The notes beneath the pieces are model-generated. The model was not told where the DNA came from, ran no database searches, and saw only the letters and a program-made list of their open reading frames with translations. From contig JAOKVV010000001.1 in assembly GCA_028336925.1 (NCBI GenBank), positions 1 to 64,000 on the forward strand: a stretch of 64,000 nt of DNA. The letters run 5' to 3'. Made by a program: the position numbers and the translations under genes. Positions 5,500-18,985 of this stretch are shown here, piece after piece; positions within the stretch are counted from its first letter, which is position 1, and every line of letters begins with the position of its first letter. The stretch is from Vicingaceae bacterium. Lineage in GTDB: Bacteria; Bacteroidota; Bacteroidia; Flavobacteriales_E; Vicingaceae.

Positions 5500-6150
5500 A
5501 TGGAGGTTGGATCAAAACATTTCATTCAAGAAGAAATACTAACCCTTTTACCGGAAAAGGCTATTTATTGGGAATCTAAAGAGGTTTTAATAATAGCCGA
5601 TTTACACCTAGGAAAAGCACGGCACTTTAGGGCAAATGGATTAGCAGTTCCAAAAGCAGTTGAGACGAGCAATTGGGAGACGCTAGCGGGGCTCATTAAA
5701 ACAATACGACCGACACGAGTTTTGCTCTTAGGAGATCTATTTCACAGCTTCTATAATCGAGAAGTAGCCAACTTTAAAGAGTTTATTGCAGATTTCTCTC
5801 ACATTTCTTTTGAACTAATAATCGGAAACCATGACGTACTGGGTGTTGGTACCTACGAAGACCTCAACTTAATCGTACACCACGACGAACTAATTATTCC
5901 GCCGTTTATTTTCACACACGAACCGCTAGAGAAGAGTTCAGGTGATTTATTTAACCTTGCAGGACATATTCATCCCGCTGTTATTATGAAAGGGAAAGGA
6001 AGAGCTCGTCAAAAATTTCCTTGCTTCTATTTTACACAACAGCTAGGATTATTCCCTGCTTTTGGAGCTTTTACTGGAACTGCTGAAATTAAACCTCAAA
6101 AAAATGACAAAATATATATTATTGCAGATCAGGAAGTAATTGCCGTTTAA
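5500..6150 (+). CDS. pdeM: Ligase-associated DNA damage response metallophosphoesterase PdeM
   Basis: 'EEILTLLPEKAIYWESKEVLIIADLHLGKARHFRANGLAVP...LLLGDLFHS...GNHD...FTHEP...LAGHIHPAV' metallophosphoesterase motifs of the PdeM family. Confidence 0.85.
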   Translation: MEVGSKHFIQEEILTLLPEKAIYWESKEVLIIADLHLGKARHFRANGLAVPKAVETSNWETLAGLIKTIRPTRVLLLGDLFHSFYNREVANFKEFIADFSHISFELIIGNHDVLGVGTYEDLNLIVHHDELIIPPFIFTHEPLEKSSGDLFNLAGHIHPAVIMKGKGRARQKFPCFYFTQQLGLFPAFGAFTGTAEIKPQKNDKIYIIADQEVIAV

Positions 6151-7559
6151 TAATGTTTATCCCAATAATTTGGCGTAATCATCGGCAAATAATAGTCTCT
6201 TTCTAAATGAAAGGATTCTGATTGAAATAGACCTTTTGGTTTCGTCCATGGATGATGAATTGTTTCTGTTAATTCCGATAATTCAGGTAGCCAAAAACGA
6301 ATATAATCCCCTTTGGCATCGTATCTTTTGGCTTGTAAAATCACATTAAAATATCGGTCTCTAGGATCGTTTCCTACCCCTGCTATATACATCCAATTTC
6401 CATAATTACTAGTCACATCATAGTCTAGCAACTTTGATTCAAAATAAGCTGCACCCATCCTCCAATCCAATCCTAATTCAGTTACAAAAAAAGAAGCCAC
6501 ATTCTGTCGTCCTCTATTGCTCATAAACCCAGTAAGGTTAAGCTCACGCATATTCGCATCTATAAACGGAATCCCTGTTGTAGCTGTTGCCCATTTGTCA
6601 AATAATACCTTATCCCTTTTCCAATTCTCCGACTTCCCATTTATTCCATTTATTTGAAAGATAGATGATCCATGTTTTAAACCAATGTATTTAAAAAAGT
6701 CTCTCCAGATAAGTTCAAATATTAACCAATAAGTAGATTGATTCTTCTTGACCCTTTTTTCATAATTGAGCACCTCCCAATAAATTCTCCGCGGTGAAAT
6801 ACAGCCATTCCATAGCCACACCGAAAGTTTAGAAGAGTAATCTGCACCAATTAATCCATTTCGGGTTTCCTTATATGTACTGAGATGCTCTGTGTGATAA
6901 AAATAATGATTTAAACGCGCTATAGCTTCATCCTCTCCGCCTTTAAAATTAATTACAGACCTTTCGTCGATTGGTTGATTTTTAAGGCCTAAATCGGCTA
7001 ATTTGGGCAAGCTACCCCAATTTAAATCTATAGGAGTTTTGATAGTCGCAGGAGTTTTGAATAATTCTCTGACATTCGATTGTTTTTCAAGAGCCTTTCT
7101 AAAAGTCGTAAAAACTTTAGGAATATCATTAAAATGAAAAGGCAAATCGTTTACATGAAATAAAGTAGTTCCAAAACTGTAGTTAACTCTAGTTGGTGCT
7201 ACCTTTTCTACTTCTTGCTCTATCTCTTTTTCTTCAGTGGTAATTTCTTTATAGGCAAATACTTCGCTAACATTGGCCGATTTGATTACTTGTTGTAATT
7301 CAGTAGCAGGATTTCCAAAACGTACAACTAAATTACTTCCTAACTTCTGGAGGCTTTCCTTTAAATTTTGAACACTTTCTACTAAAAATTGTGCCCGTAT
7401 AGCATCTGTTTTATGAAACCCATATTGGTCTTTTTTAAACTGATTTTCATCAAAACAATAAAAAGGTATTACTAAATCATGCGATGATATCGCTTTAGCT
7501 AATGCTTCATGATCATGAAGTCTTAGATCATTTCTAAACCAAACTAGTGCAGTGGTCAT
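6147..7559 (-). CDS. DASH family cryptochrome
   Basis: 'TALVWFRNDLRLHDHEAL...' N-terminal photolyase domain and FAD domain 'GFMSNRGRQNVASFFVTELGLDWRMGAAYFESKLLDYDVTSNYGNWMYIAGVGNDPR'. Confidence 0.88.
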   Translation of the reverse strand: MTTALVWFRNDLRLHDHEALAKAISSHDLVIPFYCFDENQFKKDQYGFHKTDAIRAQFLVESVQNLKESLQKLGSNLVVRFGNPATELQQVIKSANVSEVFAYKEITTEEKEIEQEVEKVAPTRVNYSFGTTLFHVNDLPFHFNDIPKVFTTFRKALEKQSNVRELFKTPATIKTPIDLNWGSLPKLADLGLKNQPIDERSVINFKGGEDEAIARLNHYFYHTEHLSTYKETRNGLIGADYSSKLSVWLWNGCISPRRIYWEVLNYEKRVKKNQSTYWLIFELIWRDFFKYIGLKHGSSIFQINGINGKSENWKRDKVLFDKWATATTGIPFIDANMRELNLTGFMSNRGRQNVASFFVTELGLDWRMGAAYFESKLLDYDVTSNYGNWMYIAGVGNDPRDRYFNVILQAKRYDAKGDYIRFWLPELSELTETIHHPWTKPKGLFQSESFHLERDYYLPMITPNYWDKHY

Positions 7560-7702
7560 GGGGTTTTAGTTCTACGGCATCTTTCGCTACAATACTTCAC
7601 GTTGGCCCAATCTTTTGCCCATTTCTTCCGCCATTGAAAAGGTCGATTGCATTGAAGGCATATTTTCCCCTCCAACTCTCCTTTTTTAACCATTTTCCCC
7701 AT
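7556..7702 (-). CDS. DUF2256 family small zinc-binding protein (48 aa)
   Basis: Reading the minus strand gives MGKMVKKGELEGKICLQCNRPFQWRKKWAKDWANVKYCSERCRRTKTP*, with CxxC..CxxxC ligands; stop overlaps the cryptochrome ATG (ATGA). Too short for the ORF track. Confidence 0.88.
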   Translation of the reverse strand: MGKMVKKGELEGKICLQCNRPFQWRKKWAKDWANVKYCSERCRRTKTP

Positions 7703-7709
7703 AATTTGT

Positions 7710-7925
7710 TTAGTCTATTCTGGTATCAGTATGCCCCCCAATCAAACGATAAAAAGGCGAACGACCTGTAAGTCCTACGGCGAAATAAAAAAGACCAAGC
7801 ATAACCAATAGCACCTGAAAAACAATTGAAGAGATTTGGGTAATGCCCAAATAAATGGTTACACCTGACATTAAAAAACGTAGAATCCGGTCGAGTATTC
7901 CCATATTTTTTTTAAATCCAAACAC
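7710..7925 (-). CDS. DUF2892 (YgaP-like) inner membrane protein; start may be the internal Met (MGILDRILRF)
   Basis: 'MGILDRILRFLMSGVTIYLGITQISSIVFQVLLVMLGLFYFAVGLTGRSPFYRLIG'. Confidence 0.8.
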   Translation of the reverse strand: MFGFKKNMGILDRILRFLMSGVTIYLGITQISSIVFQVLLVMLGLFYFAVGLTGRSPFYRLIGGHTDTRID

Positions 7926-7970
7926 AATTAGTCGTTTTTGAGTTTTTGAATAAAGCTGAAATTTAGCTAT

Positions 7971-9419
7971 TTAATCGTAAAAAGCAACCCTTTTGGCCAT
8001 GTTTGTAAAAATAAAGCCATGGAAAGGAAGTACAGCGTACCAATACAACCTTCCTGCAACACCGGTGGGTCTAAAGGTGGCGGTTTGAACCAACACCAAT
8101 TTATTTTCATCAGTTTTATGTGGATTGATTTTAAATTCAAGCCATGCGTCGCCAGGTAATTTCATCTCTGCAAAAAGTAATAATCTTACCTGCTTTTCAT
8201 CCGCTAATAATACCCGCCAAAAATCCAAAGAATCTCCAGGGTTAATATCGGTTGGGCTTCTTCTGCCCCTTCTGAGTCCCACTCCGCCAACCAATTTATC
8301 CATATACCCACGTAGTTTCCATAAAAAATTACCATAATACCAGCCCTTGCTTCCGCCAATTGTCCAAATATTTGACTTTACTTGTGCTTGTCGCTCTTTT
8401 AGAAATTCATAATACTTTATATCTTTAAACGTTCCATTTTGGGGGACTTCAATAAATTCATTGAGCGCAGCATCATGGTTGATAAAACTATCAGAATCTA
8501 CCCAAGAAGAAACCACCATATTCTGCTCTATTCGGTTAAAAGCCAATTTCACAGCATCGGAATACGAAAATAATGGTATGGAAATCACTTGATTTAAATC
8601 GTCTTTTACCACCACCTCATTCTTCATGCTCTCCACTAAATTAACCGCCAATTGGTAAGAGGTTGAGGTTACAAAGTATAACCAATAAGAAGAGATTTTG
8701 GGACTAAAAAGTGGCACTGTTAAAATATATCTTTTAATGCCCCTAACTTTGGCAAACTCTAAAAGCATCTGCCTGTAAGTCAAAACATCAGGACCTCCTA
8801 TATCATAGGTTTTATGGTAAACCGCTTCATTTAAAGCCACTTTTTCTAAATACTGAATTACATTCCTAATTCCGATGGGTTGGCATTTAGTATTTAACCA
8901 TTTAGGAGCAATCATTAACGGTAACTTTTCTACTAAATCTCGAATAATTTCAAAACTAGCCCCTCCTGATCCGATAATAATAGCGGCCCTTAGAACGGTA
9001 ACCGGAACTTTTGCAGCTTGTAATATATGTTCAACATTTTTCCGGCTTTCTAAATGCTTGGATAGCTCATCATCATTTGATATTCCTCCTAAATAAACAA
9101 TTTGTTGCGCAGTAGTGGTGCTAATATAGTTAGCAAAGTTCTCTGCTGCTTTGGATTCCATTTCTGAAAAGTCTCCGGTTGTAGAAGAGAGCGAATGAAT
9201 TAAATAGTAAGCTACATCAAACTCTTTAGGTAAATTGTTTAATGTTTCCGATTCTAAGAAATCAGCAGAAACTTTGGTTACTTGACTAGCTGAAGCATCG
9301 GATATCGTTATTCTATCCGTATCTCTAACTACAGCAATTACTTCATGACCCGCTTTGGTTAAGTGAGTTAATAATCGTTTGCCGATATATCCATTTGCTC
9401 CTGTAAGTAGTACTTTCAA
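7971..9419 (-). CDS. SDR/NAD(P)-binding protein, DUF2867 type (YbjT-like)
   Basis: 'MKVLLTGANGYIGKRLLTHLTKAGHEVIAVVRD' Rossmann N-terminus, DUF2867-like C-terminus 'PGDSLDFWRVLLADEKQVRLLLFAEMKLPGDAWLEFKI'. Confidence 0.85.
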   Translation of the reverse strand: MKVLLTGANGYIGKRLLTHLTKAGHEVIAVVRDTDRITISDASASQVTKVSADFLESETLNNLPKEFDVAYYLIHSLSSTTGDFSEMESKAAENFANYISTTTAQQIVYLGGISNDDELSKHLESRKNVEHILQAAKVPVTVLRAAIIIGSGGASFEIIRDLVEKLPLMIAPKWLNTKCQPIGIRNVIQYLEKVALNEAVYHKTYDIGGPDVLTYRQMLLEFAKVRGIKRYILTVPLFSPKISSYWLYFVTSTSYQLAVNLVESMKNEVVVKDDLNQVISIPLFSYSDAVKLAFNRIEQNMVVSSWVDSDSFINHDAALNEFIEVPQNGTFKDIKYYEFLKERQAQVKSNIWTIGGSKGWYYGNFLWKLRGYMDKLVGGVGLRRGRRSPTDINPGDSLDFWRVLLADEKQVRLLLFAEMKLPGDAWLEFKINPHKTDENKLVLVQTATFRPTGVAGRLYWYAVLPFHGFIFTNMAKRVAFYD

Positions 9420-9640
9420 TTTGGTCTAATTTAATGCTAAAAACCCATTTTTATTTAACATAACTACTCTTACAAAATAAGATTAATTTCTGCAAAAATA
9501 AGAAGCTGATTGTCGCTTATATACAAGTAAAATATCAATTAATAATCCAACCAAATTTGCTGTATATTTTTCTACAACATCCAAACCGGACCAATTAGAT
9601 TTAATGTATCTAAGTTATAAAATAACGGTACACTTCCTAA

Positions 9641-10945
9641 TTAACCATTTAAGGCCTTTTTATAGGTGTTTATGGCTCTTTCTCTGGCCATTTTGTGCTC
9701 AACTATAGGCTCAGGATATCTTTCTGTATTGAGCTCTTTAACCCATCTTCTGAGATAAATTTGGTCTTTATCAAACTTCTTAATCTGCTCTGTAGGATTA
9801 AACACCCTAAAATAAGGTGCAGCATCTACTCCTGTTCCAGCAGCCCACTGCCAATTTCCATTATTTGCCGACAATTCATAGTCTAACAGTTTAGAGGCAA
9901 AGTAAGCCTCACCCCATCGCCAATCAATCAATAAGTGTTTCGTTAGAAAACCCGCAGTTATCATCCGTACACGATTATGCATATACCCTGTTTCATTCAA
10001 CTCTCGCATACCTGCATCAACCATAGGGTAACCTGTTTTGCCTTCGCACCATTTCTTAAACTCTTCTTCGTTATTCCGCCATGGCACAGCATCATACTTT
10101 CGATTAAAATTATTCGTCACCGCATGCGGATAATAAAATAAGATCATCATAAAAAATTCTCGCCAGATCAATTCAGAATAAAACACCTCACTTTTTTGAC
10201 GAGCTCTTGCGGCAATTTCTCTTACACTAACAGTTCCAAAACGCAAATGAATTCCTAATTTACTCGTACTGTCTTTCGCAGGAAAATTGCGCTCAGCTTC
10301 ATATATTTCCATTGTTAGGTCTGTCAACCGATTAGTAGGAATTGCTATAGTAGTGGGCTCAAAGCCAATAAACTTTAAAGATGGTAAATCATAATTGGAA
10401 GGATACCAATTGTCAAAATTCAAAGCAGAGGAAAATTGCTCAAAGTCTTTATCCTCCGCTACCTTTTTCCATATTTTACTAAATGGTGTGTAAACTAAAT
10501 ATGGGGTATCGTCCTTCTTAAGCACCTCTCCTGGCTCTAATATTACTTGGTCTTTAAACGTGTTAAATGCGATATTCTTACTTTCCAAAAATGTCTTTAC
10601 TTCTTGATCTCTTTTGGTCGCATACGGCTCATAATCGCGGTTGGTATAAACAGCAGAAATAACATACTCTTCTGTCAACTCTTTCCATATTGCCATTGGG
10701 TCTCCATGACGAACATCTAAAGACGCTCCTTTATCCCTTAAACTATGATGAATATTTTCTAACTCTTGGTGGATAAAAGACACACGTGCGTCTGTTTTAT
10801 CTTCTAAATCGTTCAGTATATTTTCATCAAAAATAAAAATAGGCTGCACTGGATGATCCCCTGAAAGTGCTGCATGAAGTCCTGCGTTATCTTGTAATCG
10901 TAGATCTCTTCTATACCAAAAAAGGGAAATTTTTTCTTGACCCAT
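9641..10945 (-). CDS. phrB: Deoxyribodipyrimidine photolyase
   Basis: 'ISLFWYRRDLRLQDNAGLHAAL' and 'GYMHNRVRMITAGFLTKHLLIDWRWGEAYFASKLLDYELSANNGNWQWAAGTGVDAAPYFRVFNP'. Confidence 0.92.
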   Translation of the reverse strand: MGQEKISLFWYRRDLRLQDNAGLHAALSGDHPVQPIFIFDENILNDLEDKTDARVSFIHQELENIHHSLRDKGASLDVRHGDPMAIWKELTEEYVISAVYTNRDYEPYATKRDQEVKTFLESKNIAFNTFKDQVILEPGEVLKKDDTPYLVYTPFSKIWKKVAEDKDFEQFSSALNFDNWYPSNYDLPSLKFIGFEPTTIAIPTNRLTDLTMEIYEAERNFPAKDSTSKLGIHLRFGTVSVREIAARARQKSEVFYSELIWREFFMMILFYYPHAVTNNFNRKYDAVPWRNNEEEFKKWCEGKTGYPMVDAGMRELNETGYMHNRVRMITAGFLTKHLLIDWRWGEAYFASKLLDYELSANNGNWQWAAGTGVDAAPYFRVFNPTEQIKKFDKDQIYLRRWVKELNTERYPEPIVEHKMARERAINTYKKALNG

Positions 10946-11580
10946 TATACCTTTTTTAAAGATTCATGCGGTTTCGCATACGAAAGGCGTTGTATCAACT
11001 TTGGCTGATAATACGCATCTAAGCCAACTACAGCAGTAGAGTCATACTTTTGTAAATCAATAAACCCATCGTTATCAATACCATCATCATCTATTTCTAT
11101 CAAGACAACTTCGCCAATAATCAGTATAGTTCCGTTTAATTCTATTGGTGTGATTTGTCGTAGCTCCAAGCCTAATTTTACCTTACTTTCTTTTACGAAA
11201 GGAGCCTTAAATCCGTCAAGGAATTCCGCTGTTAAACCAACTTCATCAAATTCTGATTGATTGACCTCATATCGAGCAGCACTCTGATGTGCTTGATCAA
11301 CAATTTCTGAATGAACATGATTTAACGTGTAGATCCCTGATTTTTTCAGATTAGATAATGTATGCCTATCAACCGTTGCTGGTCGAGAGATCATGCCAAT
11401 TAGCGGTGGGTTAGCACCAACATGGAATATAGAATTAAAGGGCGCTAGATTAGTACCACCATCTTGATTAATAGATCCCACCAAATTCAATGCCTTAAAC
11501 CCTTCTATTGCATTGATGAAGTTTGCTCTATATCGCTGTGGCATTTCAGCAATATCGGCAGAAGTATAAATCTTTTTCAT
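10945..11580 (-). CDS. Flavin reductase family protein (FMN-binding split barrel)
   Basis: 'NLAPFNSIFHVGANPPLIGMISRPATVDRHTLSNLKKSGIYTLNHV' typical flavin reductase-like fold; TAATG overlap with photolyase start. Confidence 0.8.
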   Translation of the reverse strand: MKKIYTSADIAEMPQRYRANFINAIEGFKALNLVGSINQDGGTNLAPFNSIFHVGANPPLIGMISRPATVDRHTLSNLKKSGIYTLNHVHSEIVDQAHQSAARYEVNQSEFDEVGLTAEFLDGFKAPFVKESKVKLGLELRQITPIELNGTILIIGEVVLIEIDDDGIDNDGFIDLQKYDSTAVVGLDAYYQPKLIQRLSYAKPHESLKKV

Positions 11581-12272
11581 TATTTCAATCTACTCATTCC
11601 TCCATCAATATGCAACACCTGACCTGTCATCCAAGATGATTGGTCAGTTAAAAGATACATTGCTGCATTTGCGATATCCTCTGTAGTTCCAATTTTCTTT
11701 AATGGGTGTCGATCTGCATTGGCTTTTCGTTTTTCATCTGAAGATAATAAACTATTAGCCAAAGGAGTATCTGTTAATGATGGGGCCACTAAATTCACTC
11801 GAATTTTTGGAGCTAACTCCGAAGCTAATGCTCTGCCCAACCCTTCTAAGGCTCCCTTTGCCATTGCAACTGAAGTATGAAAAGTTAATCCAGTTTGAAC
11901 TGCAACTGTGCTAAACAACACAATAGATGCGTTATCTGCTTTCTTTAATTTCGGCAAAGCATGCTGAATAACTTTTACTGCTCCCATAGCATTTAATTGA
12001 TATTCAGCTAAAAAGTCTTCTTCTTTAATTCGATGGAATGGCTTTAAATTAATGGAACCAGGGCAGTACGCCAGCCCATCAATAGATTCAGGTAAATCCA
12101 ACTCAATAGATTCATTTACATCTAATTTCTGAAACGTAACATTAGCAAATCCTTCTAAGTTTTTTTCTTCTCTTGATGCTACAATTACATGATTCCCTGC
12201 TGCTGAAAGTTGCTTAACAATAGCGTTCCCGATGCCAGATGTTCCTCCGACGATGAGGTATGTTTTACTCAT
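11580..12272 (-). CDS. SDR family oxidoreductase
   Basis: TGxxxGIG-like 'VGGTSGIGNAIVKQL', 'MTGQVLHIDGGMSRLK'. Confidence 0.88.
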   Translation of the reverse strand: MSKTYLIVGGTSGIGNAIVKQLSAAGNHVIVASREEKNLEGFANVTFQKLDVNESIELDLPESIDGLAYCPGSINLKPFHRIKEEDFLAEYQLNAMGAVKVIQHALPKLKKADNASIVLFSTVAVQTGLTFHTSVAMAKGALEGLGRALASELAPKIRVNLVAPSLTDTPLANSLLSSDEKRKANADRHPLKKIGTTEDIANAAMYLLTDQSSWMTGQVLHIDGGMSRLK

Positions 12273-12282
12273 AAAGTTCGTT

Positions 12283-12319
12283 TTGTTTAATTAACAGAAC
12301 TTGTTACTATTTGTTTAAC
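12283..12319. promoter_or_regulatory. Putative CarH-like operator half-sites upstream of the SDR-flavin reductase-photolyase operon
   Basis: TTGTTTAA at 12283-12290 and TTGTTTAAC at 12311-12319, just upstream of the 12272 start. Confidence 0.45.
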
Positions 12320-12397
12320 GATTTCAATGAATAAATCAGTCCATTAGGGAAACAAACAATCTCATTTCGGAAAAATGAAAGAAATAAATAATAAGTA

Positions 12398-12527
12398 TCA
12401 TTAGTGTCCGATTAAAAGCAAAAGCATACCTAACTATTTAGTCGTTTAAGTATAACTATTTTTAGACGGATTGGCCTTGAAAAATCTTCAAGTATTTGGA
12501 ATTTTAGCCATAGAAAGTTTGATGCCG
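12398..12527 (-). repeat. Dispersed intergenic repeat, copy C (internally deleted, inverted)
   Basis: Reverse complement matches copy A left part (caaactttct..ggct..aaattc..ttgaaga/gttttttcaaggcc) and right end (aatagttatac...tatgctttt...atcggacactaatga). Confidence 0.65.
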
Positions 12528-12652
12528 ATTAACTTCTATAATCAGCTATATTCGTTTCTTTTTGTCATAAAATAAAAGTATTATGCTTACGACAAGATAA
12601 CTCGGCATTTACCAATTACACAACCATTTTTCCATTGTAAGAAGTTGAAAGA

Positions 12653-13177
12653 TTACGCCGCTTTCTCTAACTGATATTGAATTACTCGCTCCCAGCTTAA
12701 TTTAAACCATTCGGTGTATTGTTTGGGGTTAGCCGCTATATCTTTTGACAACCAACGAGGGTTTACCCATTTCCAAGCATTAACCTCCTCTGGATTTATA
12801 TTTGGCAGCTCGTTATAATGACCAATTAAAACATGATCGTACTCATGTTCAATTAGTCCATTAGAAAACTCAGCACGGTATATAAATTCAAATATTTCTT
12901 CTAAATCACAGTCAAAACCCATCTCCTCTCCTAATCTTCTATGGGCAGCTTCTAAGTTAGTTTCACCCATCTGCTGATGACTGCAACAAGTGTTTGTCCA
13001 CAAGCCAGGAGAATGATATTTGGTAAGCGCCCGCTGATGAATCATCACCTGACCTTGATCATTAAAAACAAATACGGAAAAGGCTCGGTGTAATAATCCT
13101 TTTTCGTGCGCTTCCAATTTATCCATAATGCCTAATGGATGATCACTCTTATCAACTAAAATAACGTGTGGATTCAT
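12653..13177 (-). CDS. idi: Isopentenyl-diphosphate delta-isomerase (type 1, Nudix)
   Basis: 'VILVDKSDHPLGIMDKLEAHEKGLLHRAFSVFVFN...PGLWTNTCCSHQQMGE'. Confidence 0.93.
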   Translation of the reverse strand: MNPHVILVDKSDHPLGIMDKLEAHEKGLLHRAFSVFVFNDQGQVMIHQRALTKYHSPGLWTNTCCSHQQMGETNLEAAHRRLGEEMGFDCDLEEIFEFIYRAEFSNGLIEHEYDHVLIGHYNELPNINPEEVNAWKWVNPRWLSKDIAANPKQYTEWFKLSWERVIQYQLEKAA

Positions 13178-13179
13178 AA

Positions 13180-14016
13180 TTAAATTAAATTGAAGCTATG
13201 CTTAATATAAGATCCAAGAAGCAACTGATACTTTTTGTTATTTGGAATTCTAATTCGTTCCGTTAAAATAGTAGATGATGGGGTAGATTGAATCTTTTTG
13301 AAAAGTGCGTAATAATAAACATAAGCTGTATACACTCCAAAGCGGGCAATTGAAGGCAATTCTTTAATTCCAATATATGCTTCCTTAAAATCTTTATCAA
13401 TGTCTGCTTCAATAGCTCTTTTACACTCTTCAGTAAAAGTACTCACATCGATTCCAGGAAAATAACTCCGCCCCATTACCTTAAAATCAGCCTTTAAATC
13501 GCGTAAAAAATTAATCTTTTGAAATGCGGAACCCAACTTCATCGCAGCAGGTTTTAGCTGCTGATATTCTTTCTCATTTCCTTGACAAAAAACACGTAAA
13601 CACATTAAACCAACCACCTCAGCAGAACCTAAAATGTACTTTTCAAAACTTGCCTGATCGTGTTCCTTTTGTTCCAAATCCATTTCCATGCTGTGTAAAA
13701 ATGAATCGATTAATTCTCGTTCAATCTTAAATTCATTAACAGTCATTTGAAAAGCTTGTAAAACTGGATTTAAACTTATTTTTCGTTCTATTGCTTTATA
13801 AGTATCTGCTCTGAATTCATCCAATAATCCTCTTTTATCATATTCGTGAAACGTATCTACAATTTCATCAGCCAACCGTACAAAACCATAAATTCCATAA
13901 ATCGGCTCATGTATACTCTTGTTTAATACATGAATCCCCATAGAAAAGGAAGTACTGTATGCATTGGTTACCTGTCTACTAATATTAAAAGAGACTCTAT
14001 CGTAGATACTTTTCAT
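13180..14016 (-). CDS. crtB: Phytoene synthase
   Basis: 'YSTSFSMGI...IYGFVRLADEIVDTF' and 'FQKINFLRDLKAD' squalene/phytoene synthase motifs. Confidence 0.92.
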   Translation of the reverse strand: MKSIYDRVSFNISRQVTNAYSTSFSMGIHVLNKSIHEPIYGIYGFVRLADEIVDTFHEYDKRGLLDEFRADTYKAIERKISLNPVLQAFQMTVNEFKIERELIDSFLHSMEMDLEQKEHDQASFEKYILGSAEVVGLMCLRVFCQGNEKEYQQLKPAAMKLGSAFQKINFLRDLKADFKVMGRSYFPGIDVSTFTEECKRAIEADIDKDFKEAYIGIKELPSIARFGVYTAYVYYYALFKKIQSTPSSTILTERIRIPNNKKYQLLLGSYIKHSFNLI

Positions 14017-14020
14017 ACTG

Positions 14021-15493
14021 TTAGTTGATTTTTTTTCGAATAAGCTCTGATACTACTTTACCAGAAATAAGCGAAGGAGGCACCCCAGGGCCAGGTGTCG
14101 TTAATTGACCAGTATAAAACAAGTTGGATATTTTGGGGTTTACCATAGAAGGTTTGAATATAGCTGTTTGCTTCAATGTATTTGCCAATCCGTATGCATT
14201 TCCTTTAAATGCGTGGTAGTCCGTTTTAAAGTCAGAGTGAGCATACGACCTGCAATATACCATATTATCTTTAAATGAATGTCCTAATAAACGCTCCATT
14301 CGTTCAAAAATAACTTCTAAATAATCTTTTCGATGTTGTTCAGTATCCACCAAATCAGGTGCTGCGGGAATTAATATAAATAAATTTTCGCCGCCCTCAG
14401 GAGCTACTGATGGATCTATTTTTGATGGACAAGAGACATAAAACAAAGGTTTCGTCGGCCATTTTGGATCCTCATAGATTTCTTCTGCATGTGCAGCAAA
14501 AGACTCATCGAAAAATAAATTATGATGCTCTAAACCTACCACTTTTTTGTTGAACCCTAAGTAATAGATTAAACTAGAAGGTGCCATTGTTCTAGAATCC
14601 CAATAAACCTCATCATACCTTCGGTATTTTTCTTCTAAAAGATGTTGCTCAATGTGATGATAATCGGCACCTCCTACAACTACATCAAATTCATAGGCTT
14701 TGTCATTCACAATAAAATTTGAAACTTTATTGTTGGAGATGTTTATCTTGGTAACCTCTGAATTTAAATGAAATTTAACTCCAAGGCTCTTAGCTAAATT
14801 AGTCATTCCATCTACTATTTTATACATCCCTCCATCAGGATACCAAGTTCCTAACTTAATGTCTGCATAATTCATTAAACTATATAAAGCGGGGGTTTTT
14901 GACGGTTTTGCTCCTAAAAACAAAACCGGAAATTCCATCAATTCAATAATATTCGGGTGGGAAAAATACTTTCTAACATGACTGCTGAAAGAACTAAACA
15001 AATTTAAACGAAGAGATCCTAAAATCACTCGCCAATCAATAAATTCTGTTATAGAAAGAGAAGGTTTTGTAACCAAATCGTTGATACCGACATCATATTT
15101 GTATTGTGCATCAGCTAAAAAACGATCTAATTGGACACCTGCGCCTTTCTCCTTTGATTCCAATAAATTTTTGAATTCTTCATACCTAGCAGGTATGTCC
15201 CACTTGTCGCCATTTTGGAAATAAATGGTGTAGGATGGGTCTAATCTTTTAAGCATGTAGTAATCAGCAGCCTTTTTCCCAAAATCGTTAAAAAAAGATT
15301 CAAAAACATCGGGCATCCAGTACCAGCTAGGTCCCATATCAAATTTAAACCCTTCATAACTAAACTGGCGAGCTCTTCCCCCCGTTTGTTCATTTTTTTC
15401 AAATACTTCTACCTCATAACCCGCTTTAGCCAAATAAGAAGCAGCAGAAAGGGAAGAAAATCCGGAACCTATTACAGCAATACGTTTACTCAT
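14021..15493 (-). CDS. crtI: Phytoene desaturase
   Basis: 'KRIAVIGSGFSSLSAASYLAKAGYEVEVFEKNEQTGGRARQF...FDMGPSWYWMPDVFESFF', C-term 'NLFYTGQLTTPGPGVPPSLISGKV'. Confidence 0.93.
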   Translation of the reverse strand: MSKRIAVIGSGFSSLSAASYLAKAGYEVEVFEKNEQTGGRARQFSYEGFKFDMGPSWYWMPDVFESFFNDFGKKAADYYMLKRLDPSYTIYFQNGDKWDIPARYEEFKNLLESKEKGAGVQLDRFLADAQYKYDVGINDLVTKPSLSITEFIDWRVILGSLRLNLFSSFSSHVRKYFSHPNIIELMEFPVLFLGAKPSKTPALYSLMNYADIKLGTWYPDGGMYKIVDGMTNLAKSLGVKFHLNSEVTKINISNNKVSNFIVNDKAYEFDVVVGGADYHHIEQHLLEEKYRRYDEVYWDSRTMAPSSLIYYLGFNKKVVGLEHHNLFFDESFAAHAEEIYEDPKWPTKPLFYVSCPSKIDPSVAPEGGENLFILIPAAPDLVDTEQHRKDYLEVIFERMERLLGHSFKDNMVYCRSYAHSDFKTDYHAFKGNAYGLANTLKQTAIFKPSMVNPKISNLFYTGQLTTPGPGVPPSLISGKVVSELIRKKIN

Positions 15494-15503
15494 GATTTCA
15501 AAA

Positions 15504-16007
15504 CTAAGCGTAATCTTCTAAAGCTGATGTTAATTTTTTTCGTGCTAAGAAAATTCTACTCTTAACTGTACCAATCGGCATGTCTAATTCATCCGCAATC
15601 TCTTTATACTTGTACCCACTATTGTGCATATCAAAAGGAATCCTAACGTCATCATCTAAACGATCTACTTCTCTTTTAATTTCCTCGTATCTTAAAGCTG
15701 AATCAGGCGACTCGTTATTTGTTGATTTTGGTAAATTTAAAAAGTACGATTCATCTGTTGTATCTATGATTGTTTTCTTTCTAGATGCTCGTCTGTAGTT
15801 ATTGATAAATGTATTTTTCATGATAGTGTACAACCATGCCTTCAGATTAGAAGGGTCTACAAATTTATCTCTGTATTTTAATGCCTTTAATAAAGTCTCC
15901 TGTAGTAAGTCATTGGCATCTTCATTGTCAGCCGTTAATTTTAATGCAAAAAACTTCAATGGATTTTGAAGGGAAACTATTTGATTATTAAACTCTAATG
16001 CTGTCAT
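15504..16007 (-). CDS. ECF-type RNA polymerase sigma factor
   Basis: sigma2 'DANDLLQETLLKALKYRDKF..AWLYTIMKNTFINNYRR' and sigma4 'YKEIADELDMPIGTVKSRIFLARKKL'. Confidence 0.9.
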   Translation of the reverse strand: MTALEFNNQIVSLQNPLKFFALKLTADNEDANDLLQETLLKALKYRDKFVDPSNLKAWLYTIMKNTFINNYRRASRKKTIIDTTDESYFLNLPKSTNNESPDSALRYEEIKREVDRLDDDVRIPFDMHNSGYKYKEIADELDMPIGTVKSRIFLARKKLTSALEDYA

Positions 16008-16028
16008 GATGCGTTGTTTTTAATTGTT

Positions 16029-16060
16029 TTGTTCAACAAATGTATATAATTGTTAAACAA
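16029..16060. promoter_or_regulatory. Two perfect 11-bp palindromes TTGTTNAACAA (putative operator) with a TACATTTG -7-like element (minus strand, 16037-16044) upstream of the sigma factor
   Basis: TTGTTCAACAA 16029-16039 and TTGTTAAACAA 16050-16060, centres 21 bp apart; TAnnTTTG match overlaps the first palindrome. Confidence 0.6.
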
Positions 16061-16150
16061 TATTAATGTTACAACATGATTTTTTTTCTAAAATTTATGT
16101 TAATTTTTGCAATAATTTGATGTAAAAAGTTAGTATACATAGTATTAAAC

Positions 16151-16180
16151 TGTTTAACTATTTTTGTATTTAGTTAAACA
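16151..16180. promoter_or_regulatory. 9-bp perfect inverted repeat TGTTTAACT / AGTTAAACA at the 3' end of the MerR gene (operator pair or weak terminator)
   Basis: TGTTTAACT 16151-16159 and AGTTAAACA 16172-16180, 12-nt loop; centres 21 bp apart, as in the upstream palindromes. Confidence 0.45.
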
Positions 16181-17063
16181 ACATCTCCTTTTCGAGGTGT
16201 TTTATAAAACCTGACGCTTTTTTAAACGTTTTAACATTCGATGGAAGTTTTAATGGGGAATGCTCTATTTGAAAACCGGATACGATTACATTTTTACCCT
16301 TAGCATCTTTGCTAAGTTGATTTAGGTATTCTTGTAGTTCAACAGGATCCATAGGCGCGGTAAACGAACCTATGACATAGTTAATACTTGGATGATCTTT
16401 AAGTATTTTTTGTACATCTTCATAAGGCACAAATTGACCTAAATAATAAACCTTATGACCTCTGCTTCTAATTACATAGTATAAAAATAAGAGGCCTAAT
16501 TCATGCATTTCGTGCTCAGGAAGGTATAATAAAAAAGTTCTTGCTTCAGGATGAACGGATTTACATTGATCTATGGCAACGATTATTTTTTGACGTATAA
16601 TGTGCGTAATAAAATGCTCTTGGGCAGGAGATATAGTATCGGTAAGCCATAATGACCCTACTTTAGTTAAAAACGGATAAATTATTTCAATCATAGTCCC
16701 TTCAAGACCTAGCTCATTCACAAAATCGTCCATTTTACGAACGAATGTTGCTTCATCTAAATCCATTAAAGGTTGGAGTAAACTATCTATTTTAGTAACC
16801 GTTGCTGTGTCTGTATCTAAAAATGTTGCAACTTGTTGAGTAATTTCATCTTGTTCTAAACCAGCTATCTTTGAAATTTTAACACCAGCTTTGTTCAATA
16901 TGGATATATTCAACAATCTCTTTAGTTGCTCATTATTGTAGAGACGAAAATTAGTCTCTGTTCGATCAGGCTGAATTAAATCATACCGTTTTTCCCAAAT
17001 TCTAATAGTGTGGGCCTTAATACCTGTAAGCTTCTCAAGATCTTTTATATTATACTTAGCCAT
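16170..17063 (-). CDS. MerR family transcriptional regulator with cobalamin-binding-like sensor domain (CarH/LitR-like)
   Basis: MerR HTH 'YNIKDLEKLTGIKAHTIRIWEKRYDLIQPDRTETNFRLY'; W-x9-EH motif 'WLTDTISPAQEH'; 'PEHEMHELGLLFLYYVIRSRGHKVYYLG' B12-type domain. Confidence 0.88.
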   Translation of the reverse strand: MAKYNIKDLEKLTGIKAHTIRIWEKRYDLIQPDRTETNFRLYNNEQLKRLLNISILNKAGVKISKIAGLEQDEITQQVATFLDTDTATVTKIDSLLQPLMDLDEATFVRKMDDFVNELGLEGTMIEIIYPFLTKVGSLWLTDTISPAQEHFITHIIRQKIIVAIDQCKSVHPEARTFLLYLPEHEMHELGLLFLYYVIRSRGHKVYYLGQFVPYEDVQKILKDHPSINYVIGSFTAPMDPVELQEYLNQLSKDAKGKNVIVSGFQIEHSPLKLPSNVKTFKKASGFIKHLEKEMLFN

Positions 17064-17116
17064 TATTATAATTTCATAAAATGAATTAATTTAAGAGAAA
17101 CAATGGTTTGATCATA

Positions 17117-17125
17117 TTGTTTAAC
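17117..17125. promoter_or_regulatory. TTGTTTAAC half-site in the divergent merR/uvrC intergenic region
   Basis: Same motif as at 12311 and 16050. Confidence 0.35.
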
Positions 17126-17182: not shown

Positions 17183-18985
17183 ATGTCTAACGATTCACTC
17201 AAACCTTTAATACAAAGCGCCCCTAAAAAACCAGGAGTGTATCAGTATTTTGATGCTGAGGGCACAGTGATTTATGTTGGTAAAGCAAAAAACTTAAAAA
17301 ATCGTGTAAACTCCTACTTTAATAAAGATAAACACGAAAGCGGAAAAACTAGCGTGCTAGTAAAAAAAATAGCAGACATAAAATACATAATTGTAGAAAC
17401 AGAATTAGATGCGCTACTACTAGAAAATAACCTCATCAAAAAGTATCAGCCGCGCTATAATGTACTTCTAAAAGATGACAAAACATTTCCATGGATTTGC
17501 ATTAAAAATGAACGGTTTCCGAGAGTTTTTCCCACTCGAACAAAAATAAAAGATGGTTCTGAGTATTACGGCCCTTATGCATCAGTAAAAATGATGAATA
17601 CTGTTCTGGAGTTGATTCGGAAACTCTATCCAATCAGAACGTGTAATTATGCGCTAACTCCTGAAAATATTGCTCAATTTAAATTTAAAACTTGCCTAGA
17701 ATACCACATTGGCAATTGTTTAGGTGCTTGCGAGGGATTTCAAGAAGAAGAAAAGTATAACGCTAACATAAAGGAGGTTAGAAATATCATAAAAGGGAAT
17801 GTTTCTGATATCAGCAAGACACTAAAAGACGAAATGAAGATGTATGCTGAGGCACTAGATTATGAAAATGCCTACAAAATCAAGAAGAAACTAGATGCAT
17901 TAGAAAAGTTTCAGAATAGAAGCACTGTAGTAAGCCCAACCATCAATAATGTAGATGTATTCTCTATCCAAAGTGATGAAAAATATGGCTTTGTCAACTA
18001 TATGAAAGTGGTAAATGGAGCCATTGTACAAGCGCATACCGTAGAATTAAAGAAAAAATTAGACGAAACTGACGAAGAGCTGTTGGCCATTGGTATATTA
18101 GAACTTCGAAATCGATACGATTCTGATTCAAAAGAAATAATTGTTCCGTTAGAGCTCGATTTTAATGTTCCAAATTCCTATTACAACATCCCTCAGCGTG
18201 GTGATAAAAAGAAGCTATTAGAACTTTCTGAGCGCAATGCTAAGTTTTACCGTTTAGAGCACAGAAGACAAGCTGAACGCATAGACCCCGAAAGACATAC
18301 AAAACGAATTCTAGAGCAAATAAAATCTGATTTACGCTTAAAAGAGCTTCCGAGGCACATCGAATGTTTTGACAACTCAAACATTCAAGGAACACATCCA
18401 GTAGCAGCTTGTGTGGTATTTAAAAATGCCAAACCATCTAAAAAAGATTATCGTCGCTTTAATATTAAAACGGTAGTTGGCCCTGATGATTTTGCATCTA
18501 TGGAAGAGGTGGTTTATCGACGGTATAAGCGATTAAAGGAAGAAGGAGAGTCATTGCCACAACTTATCGTAATTGATGGTGGAAAAGGGCAGCTTGGAGC
18601 GTCTTTAAAAGCACTAGAAAAACTGGATTTAAGAGGAGAAATTGCGATAGTAGGCATTGCCAAGCGATTAGAAGAAATCTTTTTTCCAGGAGATTCATTG
18701 CCGTTATACTTGAAAAAGACTTCAGAAAGCTTGAAAGTGATACAACAACTCAGAAATGAAGCTCACCGATTCGGCATTACACACCACAGAAATAGAAGAT
18801 CCAAAACGGCTATACGATCAGAATTATCTGAGATTAAAGGAATAGGTGAAAAAACTGCAACAGAACTTTTGCAGCGATTTAAATCAGTAAAGCGAATTAA
18901 AGAAGCAAATCAAAAAGACCTAGAAGAAATAGTAGGATTCAGTAAGGCTAAAATCGTTTTTGATCATTTTAATAGAAATCAATAA
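17183..18985 (+). CDS. uvrC: Excinuclease ABC subunit UvrC
   Basis: 'APKKPGVYQYFDAEGTVIYVGKAKNLKNRVNSYF' GIY-YIG; 'HIECFDNSNIQGTHPVAACVVF' ; C-term HhH. Confidence 0.97.
   Translation: MSNDSLKPLIQSAPKKPGVYQYFDAEGTVIYVGKAKNLKNRVNSYFNKDKHESGKTSVLVKKIADIKYIIVETELDALLLENNLIKKYQPRYNVLLKDDKTFPWICIKNERFPRVFPTRTKIKDGSEYYGPYASVKMMNTVLELIRKLYPIRTCNYALTPENIAQFKFKTCLEYHIGNCLGACEGFQEEEKYNANIKEVRNIIKGNVSDISKTLKDEMKMYAEALDYENAYKIKKKLDALEKFQNRSTVVSPTINNVDVFSIQSDEKYGFVNYMKVVNGAIVQAHTVELKKKLDETDEELLAIGILELRNRYDSDSKEIIVPLELDFNVPNSYYNIPQRGDKKKLLELSERNAKFYRLEHRRQAERIDPERHTKRILEQIKSDLRLKELPRHIECFDNSNIQGTHPVAACVVFKNAKPSKKDYRRFNIKTVVGPDDFASMEEVVYRRYKRLKEEGESLPQLIVIDGGKGQLGASLKALEKLDLRGEIAIVGIAKRLEEIFFPGDSLPLYLKKTSESLKVIQQLRNEAHRFGITHHRNRRSKTAIRSELSEIKGIGEKTATELLQRFKSVKRIKEANQKDLEEIVGFSKAKIVFDHFNRNQ

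Follow-up and report, generated by a model that had tools for sequence, protein, structure and literature searches.

CarH, which serves as the model for B12 photoreceptors and as a tool in optogenetics, has in the members studied been described as recognising DNA through tandem 11-bp direct repeats (PMC9304148, PMC8156234), an arrangement that differs from typical MerR palindromes (PMC8156234). The CarH proteins of Thermus thermophilus, Bacillus megaterium and Myxococcus xanthus join a MerR domain to a four-helix/Rossmann cobalamin domain with Wx9EH and ExHxxG motifs, and lie next to carotenoid (crt) genes (PMC9304148, PMC8156234). In Pseudomonas, class II LitR repressors (PplR1/PmlR2) act on photolyase, short-chain dehydrogenase (SDR), cryptochrome and folE genes through a TGTACA-N12-TGTACA operator and are controlled by a partner LOV protein (PMC9758184). 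The Myxococcus CarQ/CarR/CarS system places an extracytoplasmic function (ECF) sigma factor in the carotenoid light response, CarQ being held by CarR and freed via singlet oxygen (PMC9304148). For one Chryseobacterium, light-induced carotenoids are reported with the regulator not identified (PMC7064467). Here we analyse a 64-kb stretch of a Vicingaceae bacterium of the genus Acidiluteibacter (contig JAOKVV010000001.1, positions 1 to 64,000; hereafter the window), in which a gene for a CarH-like photoreceptor and repressor of the MerR-B12 type (carH, 16170..17063, minus strand, 297 aa) is followed by an ECF sigma factor gene (ecf, 15504..16007, minus strand, 167 aa), crt genes and photolyase genes. 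We consider it likely, judging from sequence, that these form a two-step B12-based light circuit in which CarH represses ecf-crt and the ECF factor relays the signal to phrB and back to carH.

The locus shares with the studied CarH systems the domain architecture, both motifs and the adjacent crt genes, as well as a half-site compatible with TnnACA and a predicted operator placed over a promoter; it differs in that the TnnACA elements are inverted, 24 bp apart within a 32-bp dyad that usually occurs in two copies, and in that the predicted target operon begins with an ECF sigma gene. The association of photolyase, SDR, cryptochrome and folE genes with a LitR-type repressor recalls the Pseudomonas class II proteins, as does an operator of two elements at fixed spacing, although sequence and spacing differ; class II LitR has a LOV partner and no ECF relay, and here the residues contacting adenosylcobalamin (AdoCbl) are intact. 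As in Myxococcus, an ECF factor accompanies carotenoid genes, but no CarQ-like anti-sigma gene is adjacent to ecf in the window, and control is predicted at the level of ecf transcription. For Bacteroidota, a search of the open-access literature, which is not proof of novelty, returned neither a described CarH operator nor a relay from CarH to an ECF factor; what appears new is the operator architecture and the predicted ECF feedback relay, set on a known kind of island.

The CarH-like sensor and a 32-bp inverted dyad

The regulator carries an N-terminal MerR DNA-binding domain (PF13411, PF00376) and its best sequence match in the PDB is T. thermophilus CarH (TtCarH; 5c8d, E 2e-17). All top Foldseek matches of its AlphaFold model (pLDDT 87.7) are likewise TtCarH; the cobalamin domain superposes within ~3-4 Å (TMt 0.75-0.82), with a poorer full-length fit (TM 0.46-0.63, root-mean-square deviation 10-16 Å) presumably due to the domain angle. 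The Wx9EH motif is present as W139-x9-E149-H150 and in 144 of 145 homologues, and the AdoCbl-contacting W139, E149 and H150, along with the lower ligand H187, are kept in 144-145 of the 145. The cobalamin motif D/ExHx2G/P...SxT/V...GG reads E185-M-H187-E-L-G190, with S-F-T 42 residues on and SG where the final GG is expected. Considering that the NCBIfam CarH equivalog NF052513 scores 96 bits, below its cut-off of 400, the regulator is a CarH homologue outside the curated equivalog group. Fold and photosensing residues thus support the CarH-like identity that the first-pass annotation had assigned, and a PduO-type cobalamin adenosyltransferase was found in all three genomes of the genus (our own, A. 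ferrifornacis S-15 and a Vicingaceae metagenome-assembled genome).

The interval between carH and ecf contains two copies of a dyad with the consensus TTGTTTA-N18-TAAACAA, which the first-pass annotation had not mentioned. Predicted operator O1 (16150..16181, TTGTTTA-N18-TAAACAG, one mismatch to the consensus) overlaps the carH stop codon, and predicted operator O2 (16029..16060, TTGTTTA-N18-TGAACAA) lies over the ecf promoter. The -7 element of Bacteroidota promoters has the consensus TAnnTTTG. A match to it, TACATTTG (16035..16042, minus strand), is found inside O2, and in family members a -7-like sequence overlaps the left half-site, a placement that fits repression by blocking RNA polymerase.

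Counts of the half-sites TTGTTTA/TAAACAA in 41 sequences spike only in inverted order at a gap of 18 (71 occurrences, the mean being 17), with no such spike for direct or everted order in the same set. Of the dyads in 145 carH loci, 123 lie no more than ~700 bp from carH and 17 are spread over the remaining 1.27 Mb; a dyad lies between carH and ecf or crt in 77 of 81 linked loci (Markov shuffled control 1.8, maximum 4); relatives without a linked ecf have it directly before crtI. The logo of the promoter-proximal copy remains symmetric beyond the positions searched for (TTTGTTTAAY...RTTAAACAAAA), its inner T-rich and A-rich positions being mirrored. Expressed as TnnACA elements, inverted pairs 24 bp apart number 114 against 1.2 expected, whereas tandem pairs at 11 bp show no clear excess (6 vs 2.4). 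The symmetry of the inner portion of the half-sites accounts for a smaller tandem excess at 21 bp.

Paired copies fall mostly into three start-to-start spacings, 42-44 (9 cases), 53-55 (7) and 62-65 bp (13), with few between. They correspond roughly to 4, 5 and 6 turns of the helix, and at a period of 10.5 the mean resultant length is 0.71 (n=37), a periodicity suggesting that paired dyads would be bound on one helix face. Allowing up to two mismatches, no dyad precedes SDR-phrB or the DUF2867 gene in the window, nor is there one in its carH-uvrC gap, where a few relatives (such as L053) have one. A genome-wide scan of our own genus at the same tolerance gave counts not above the reversed-pattern control, and owing to this the analysis was confined to conserved sites that match the pattern exactly or nearly so. 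An 11-bp palindrome pattern tried initially, TTGTTNAACAA, was no more frequent genome-wide than its control and was replaced by the dyad.

An ECF-promoter-like motif and the proposed circuit

A second motif, RAAC-N16-TGTT, is found upstream of carH and of the SDR-flavin reductase-phrB operon. Both window copies read AAAC-N16-TGTT on the minus strand: one before carH (17099..17122), a predicted feedback promoter kept in the two closest relatives (L031, L032), the other before SDR (12293..12316), at the same place in L031, L032 and most family members. A peak at gap 16 appears before carH in 41 of 69 ecf-linked loci (Markov control 1.07, maximum 6), and it recurs before SDR operons. The motif lies ~50 bp upstream of the start codon and its logo is asymmetric, as expected of an ECF promoter with a GAAC/AAAC -35 element. 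The sigma factor itself consists of regions sigma2 and sigma4 only (PF04542, PF08281; TIGR02937 above cut-off). A third window match, placed at 14141-14118 inside crtI, is probably due to chance.

From the genes and their synteny, the sensor's fold and residues, and the controlled motif counts, we infer that CarH binds the dyads as a repressor, that light is the signal, that the ECF factor reads the second motif and that it feeds back on carH. In the dark, AdoCbl-loaded CarH would bind the inverted-repeat operators O1 and O2 and block the housekeeping promoter (TAnnTTTG in O2) of ecf-crtI-crtB-idi. Light would break the Co-C bond, CarH would leave the DNA, and the released operon would yield both carotenoid enzymes and the ECF sigma factor. 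The latter would then transcribe SDR-flavin reductase-phrB from RAAC-N16-TGTT and, from the same kind of promoter, carH, so that new CarH resets the switch by negative feedback.

The first-pass annotation had envisaged one light-sensing circuit driving carotenoid synthesis, photoreactivation and possibly dark repair. For pigments and photoreactivation a single circuit is well supported at the level of sequence, by the predicted operators at the ecf-crt promoter and the ECF-like motif before SDR-flavin reductase-phrB. The extension to dark repair through uvrC is not supported in the window, given that the carH-uvrC gap contains no operator and the promoter motif there faces carH, and nor is control of the DUF2867-DUF2892-DUF2256-cryDASH operon, which has neither motif in the window.

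Distribution across Bacteroidia and alternative readings

A survey of 396 Bacteroidia genomes returned 374 exact dyads against 69 for the reversed pattern. An exact site is present in 185 of 275 genomes with CarH and in 16 of 121 without it (odds ratio 13.5, p = 1e-24, a nominal value since the genomes are phylogenetically non-independent); the reversed pattern, which controls for base composition and not for ancestry, showed no association with CarH presence. Of 30 exact sites examined, ~20 lie before or next to carH, ecf, crt, phr, PTPS-folE, SOUL/flavin reductase or DUF4397 genes. The others are mostly within open frames, and the ~six to nine that fall in long ones probably reflect chance.

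A broader proposal, which we regard as evenly balanced between right and wrong, is that Bacteroidia CarH would bind in the dark as dimers arranged head-to-head at TnnACA elements paired at 24 bp, a quaternary arrangement unlike that of all studied CarH, with two same-face dyads bridged cooperatively, and that this operator would be the hallmark of a light regulon spanning the class (ecf, crt, carH, phr, cry, pterin synthesis, SOUL, fasciclin, DUF4397) and operating via an ECF relay that feeds back on carH. A precisely defined and distinct operator in 185 CarH-bearing genomes predicts light-controlled genes in a major environmental class, its architecture leads to predictions on how CarH oligomers could be rearranged on DNA, and it offers a candidate green-light-switchable promoter for Bacteroidota.

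Genes for DUF4397 and fasciclin-type lipoproteins thereby enter the candidate light regulon. In all three genomes of the genus (L083, our own genome, 1501-1532; L075/L228; L227, 2004-2035), a dyad is located upstream of a gene that encodes a lipoprotein with a fasciclin domain and is divergent from an AMP-nucleosidase-like gene, and one genus relative (G001) has a weaker second copy 45 bp away. Exact dyads are also found 20-130 bp before secreted DUF4397 (PF14344) genes in five genomes (L097, L107, L108 and L111, ~1501-1532; L101, 1456-1487), suggesting from position that these proteins may be a light-induced surface protein family. In L095 and L096 a dyad precedes genes for 6-pyruvoyl-tetrahydropterin synthase (PTPS) and GTP cyclohydrolase I (folE), with cryDASH nearby in L096; such a pathway might supply pterin for the photolyase antenna. 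In L105 (1501-1532) the dyad sits between two genes, one for a SOUL heme-binding protein and the other for a flavin reductase resembling that of the window.

Could the dyads be sites of another regulator, or terminators, with CarH using tandem 11-bp repeats or controlling nothing nearby? The overlap of O1 with the carH stop codon is a terminator-like position, and TTAACA-TATACA-TGAACA in the window could pass for an imperfect tandem array with steps of 10 and 11 bp. We consider this very improbable: the dyads track CarH presence across genomes, their arms are A+T-rich, O2 covers the -7 element, copies also precede carH, PTPS and DUF4397 genes, and the excess of TnnACA pairs is in the inverted and not in the tandem order. 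An ordinary CarH/LitR arrangement, with every operon repressed by CarH itself and the ECF factor a bystander, has precedents in the directly CarH-repressed crt genes of Myxococcus and the LitR-type proteins adjoining phrB in Pseudomonas (PMC9304148, PMC9758184), and agrees with the dyad directly before crtI in ecf-unlinked relatives. It too seems improbable, given that SDR-phrB and DUF2867 lack a dyad in the window, that the ECF-like motif stands before SDR and carH instead, and that merR-ecf-phrB synteny recurs in other families. Equally unlikely is that RAAC-N16-TGTT represents a second, everted CarH site for autorepression, to which the resemblance of AACA/TGTT to outward-facing CarH half-sites lends some plausibility. 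Here the logo argues otherwise, GAAC and a non-A after AAC being common and no conservation following GTT, as do the excess of forward over reverse matches (27 vs 9; 11 vs 1) and the promoter-like position.

The two-step circuit has its own weak points. The ECF motif comprises only eight fixed bases and precedes carH also without a linked ecf (35 of 76 other loci), and it is not recognisable before the DUF2867-cryDASH operon of the window, though four relatives of the family have it before DUF2867. The O1-O2 distance, 121 bp in all three genus members, is outside the common spacings; 4 of 81 linked loci have no dyad; an exact site is missing from 90 of 275 CarH-bearing genomes, and from most members of at least one family (f9); and the 70%-complete assembly of our own genome leaves its regulon only partly visible.

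Gene content and conservation of the island

All genes of the island are present in the order and on the strands given by the first-pass annotation. Downstream of carH, spacing suggests three minus-strand transcription units. The first, with gaps of ~2-10 bp (10 bp between ecf and crtI), comprises ecf, the phytoene desaturase gene crtI (14021..15493), the phytoene synthase gene crtB (13180..14016) and idi (12653..13177), named from sequence and context as a NUDIX isopentenyl-diphosphate isomerase. The CrtI product exceeds the cut-off for the bifunctional phytoene/3,4-desaturase type CrtID (NCBIfam NF058655, 739 bits, cut-off 640), which makes a 3,4-didehydro carotenoid a possible pigment; the locus contains no cyclase gene. 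The second unit, 380 bp beyond idi and with starts and stops touching, consists of genes for the SDR (11580..12272), a flavin reductase-like protein (flavR, 10945..11580) and the DNA photolyase PhrB (9641..10945). The third, 221 bp beyond phrB, encodes an NmrA-like SDR with DUF2867 (7971..9419), a YgaP-like transmembrane protein, previously labelled DUF2892 (7710..7925), a DUF2256 mini-protein (7556..7702; PF10013, E 3e-20), whose stop overlaps the cryDASH start, and cryptochrome DASH (6147..7559; TIGR02765, 555 bits, cut-off 317). On the plus strand, uvrC (17183..18985) is divergent from carH, and a putative pdeM open reading frame (5500..6150), without a match in a search of Pfam only, is convergent with the island.

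Comparison of 40 neighbourhoods, a check against loss of synteny that the first-pass annotation had proposed, showed that merR-ecf-crtI-crtB-(idi)-SDR-(flavR)-phrB is kept throughout the family, together with a nearby DUF2867 gene and a divergent uvrC, while a merR-ecf-phrB or merR-crtI-crtB arrangement recurs in other families. The island is not a chance grouping, and the locus is confirmed as a conserved CarH/LitR-type light-response island, itself of a known kind. A gene for a ~152-aa protein, apparently SRPBCC/START-like by eye, is divergent from DUF2867 in relatives (L032 17016-17471, L037 12714-13175, L056 12600-13058, L058 10839-11297) and is not beside DUF2867 in the window. In the two closest relatives, long secreted-protein genes are inserted at differing points of the island (L031 9432-16771 and L032 12279-16933).

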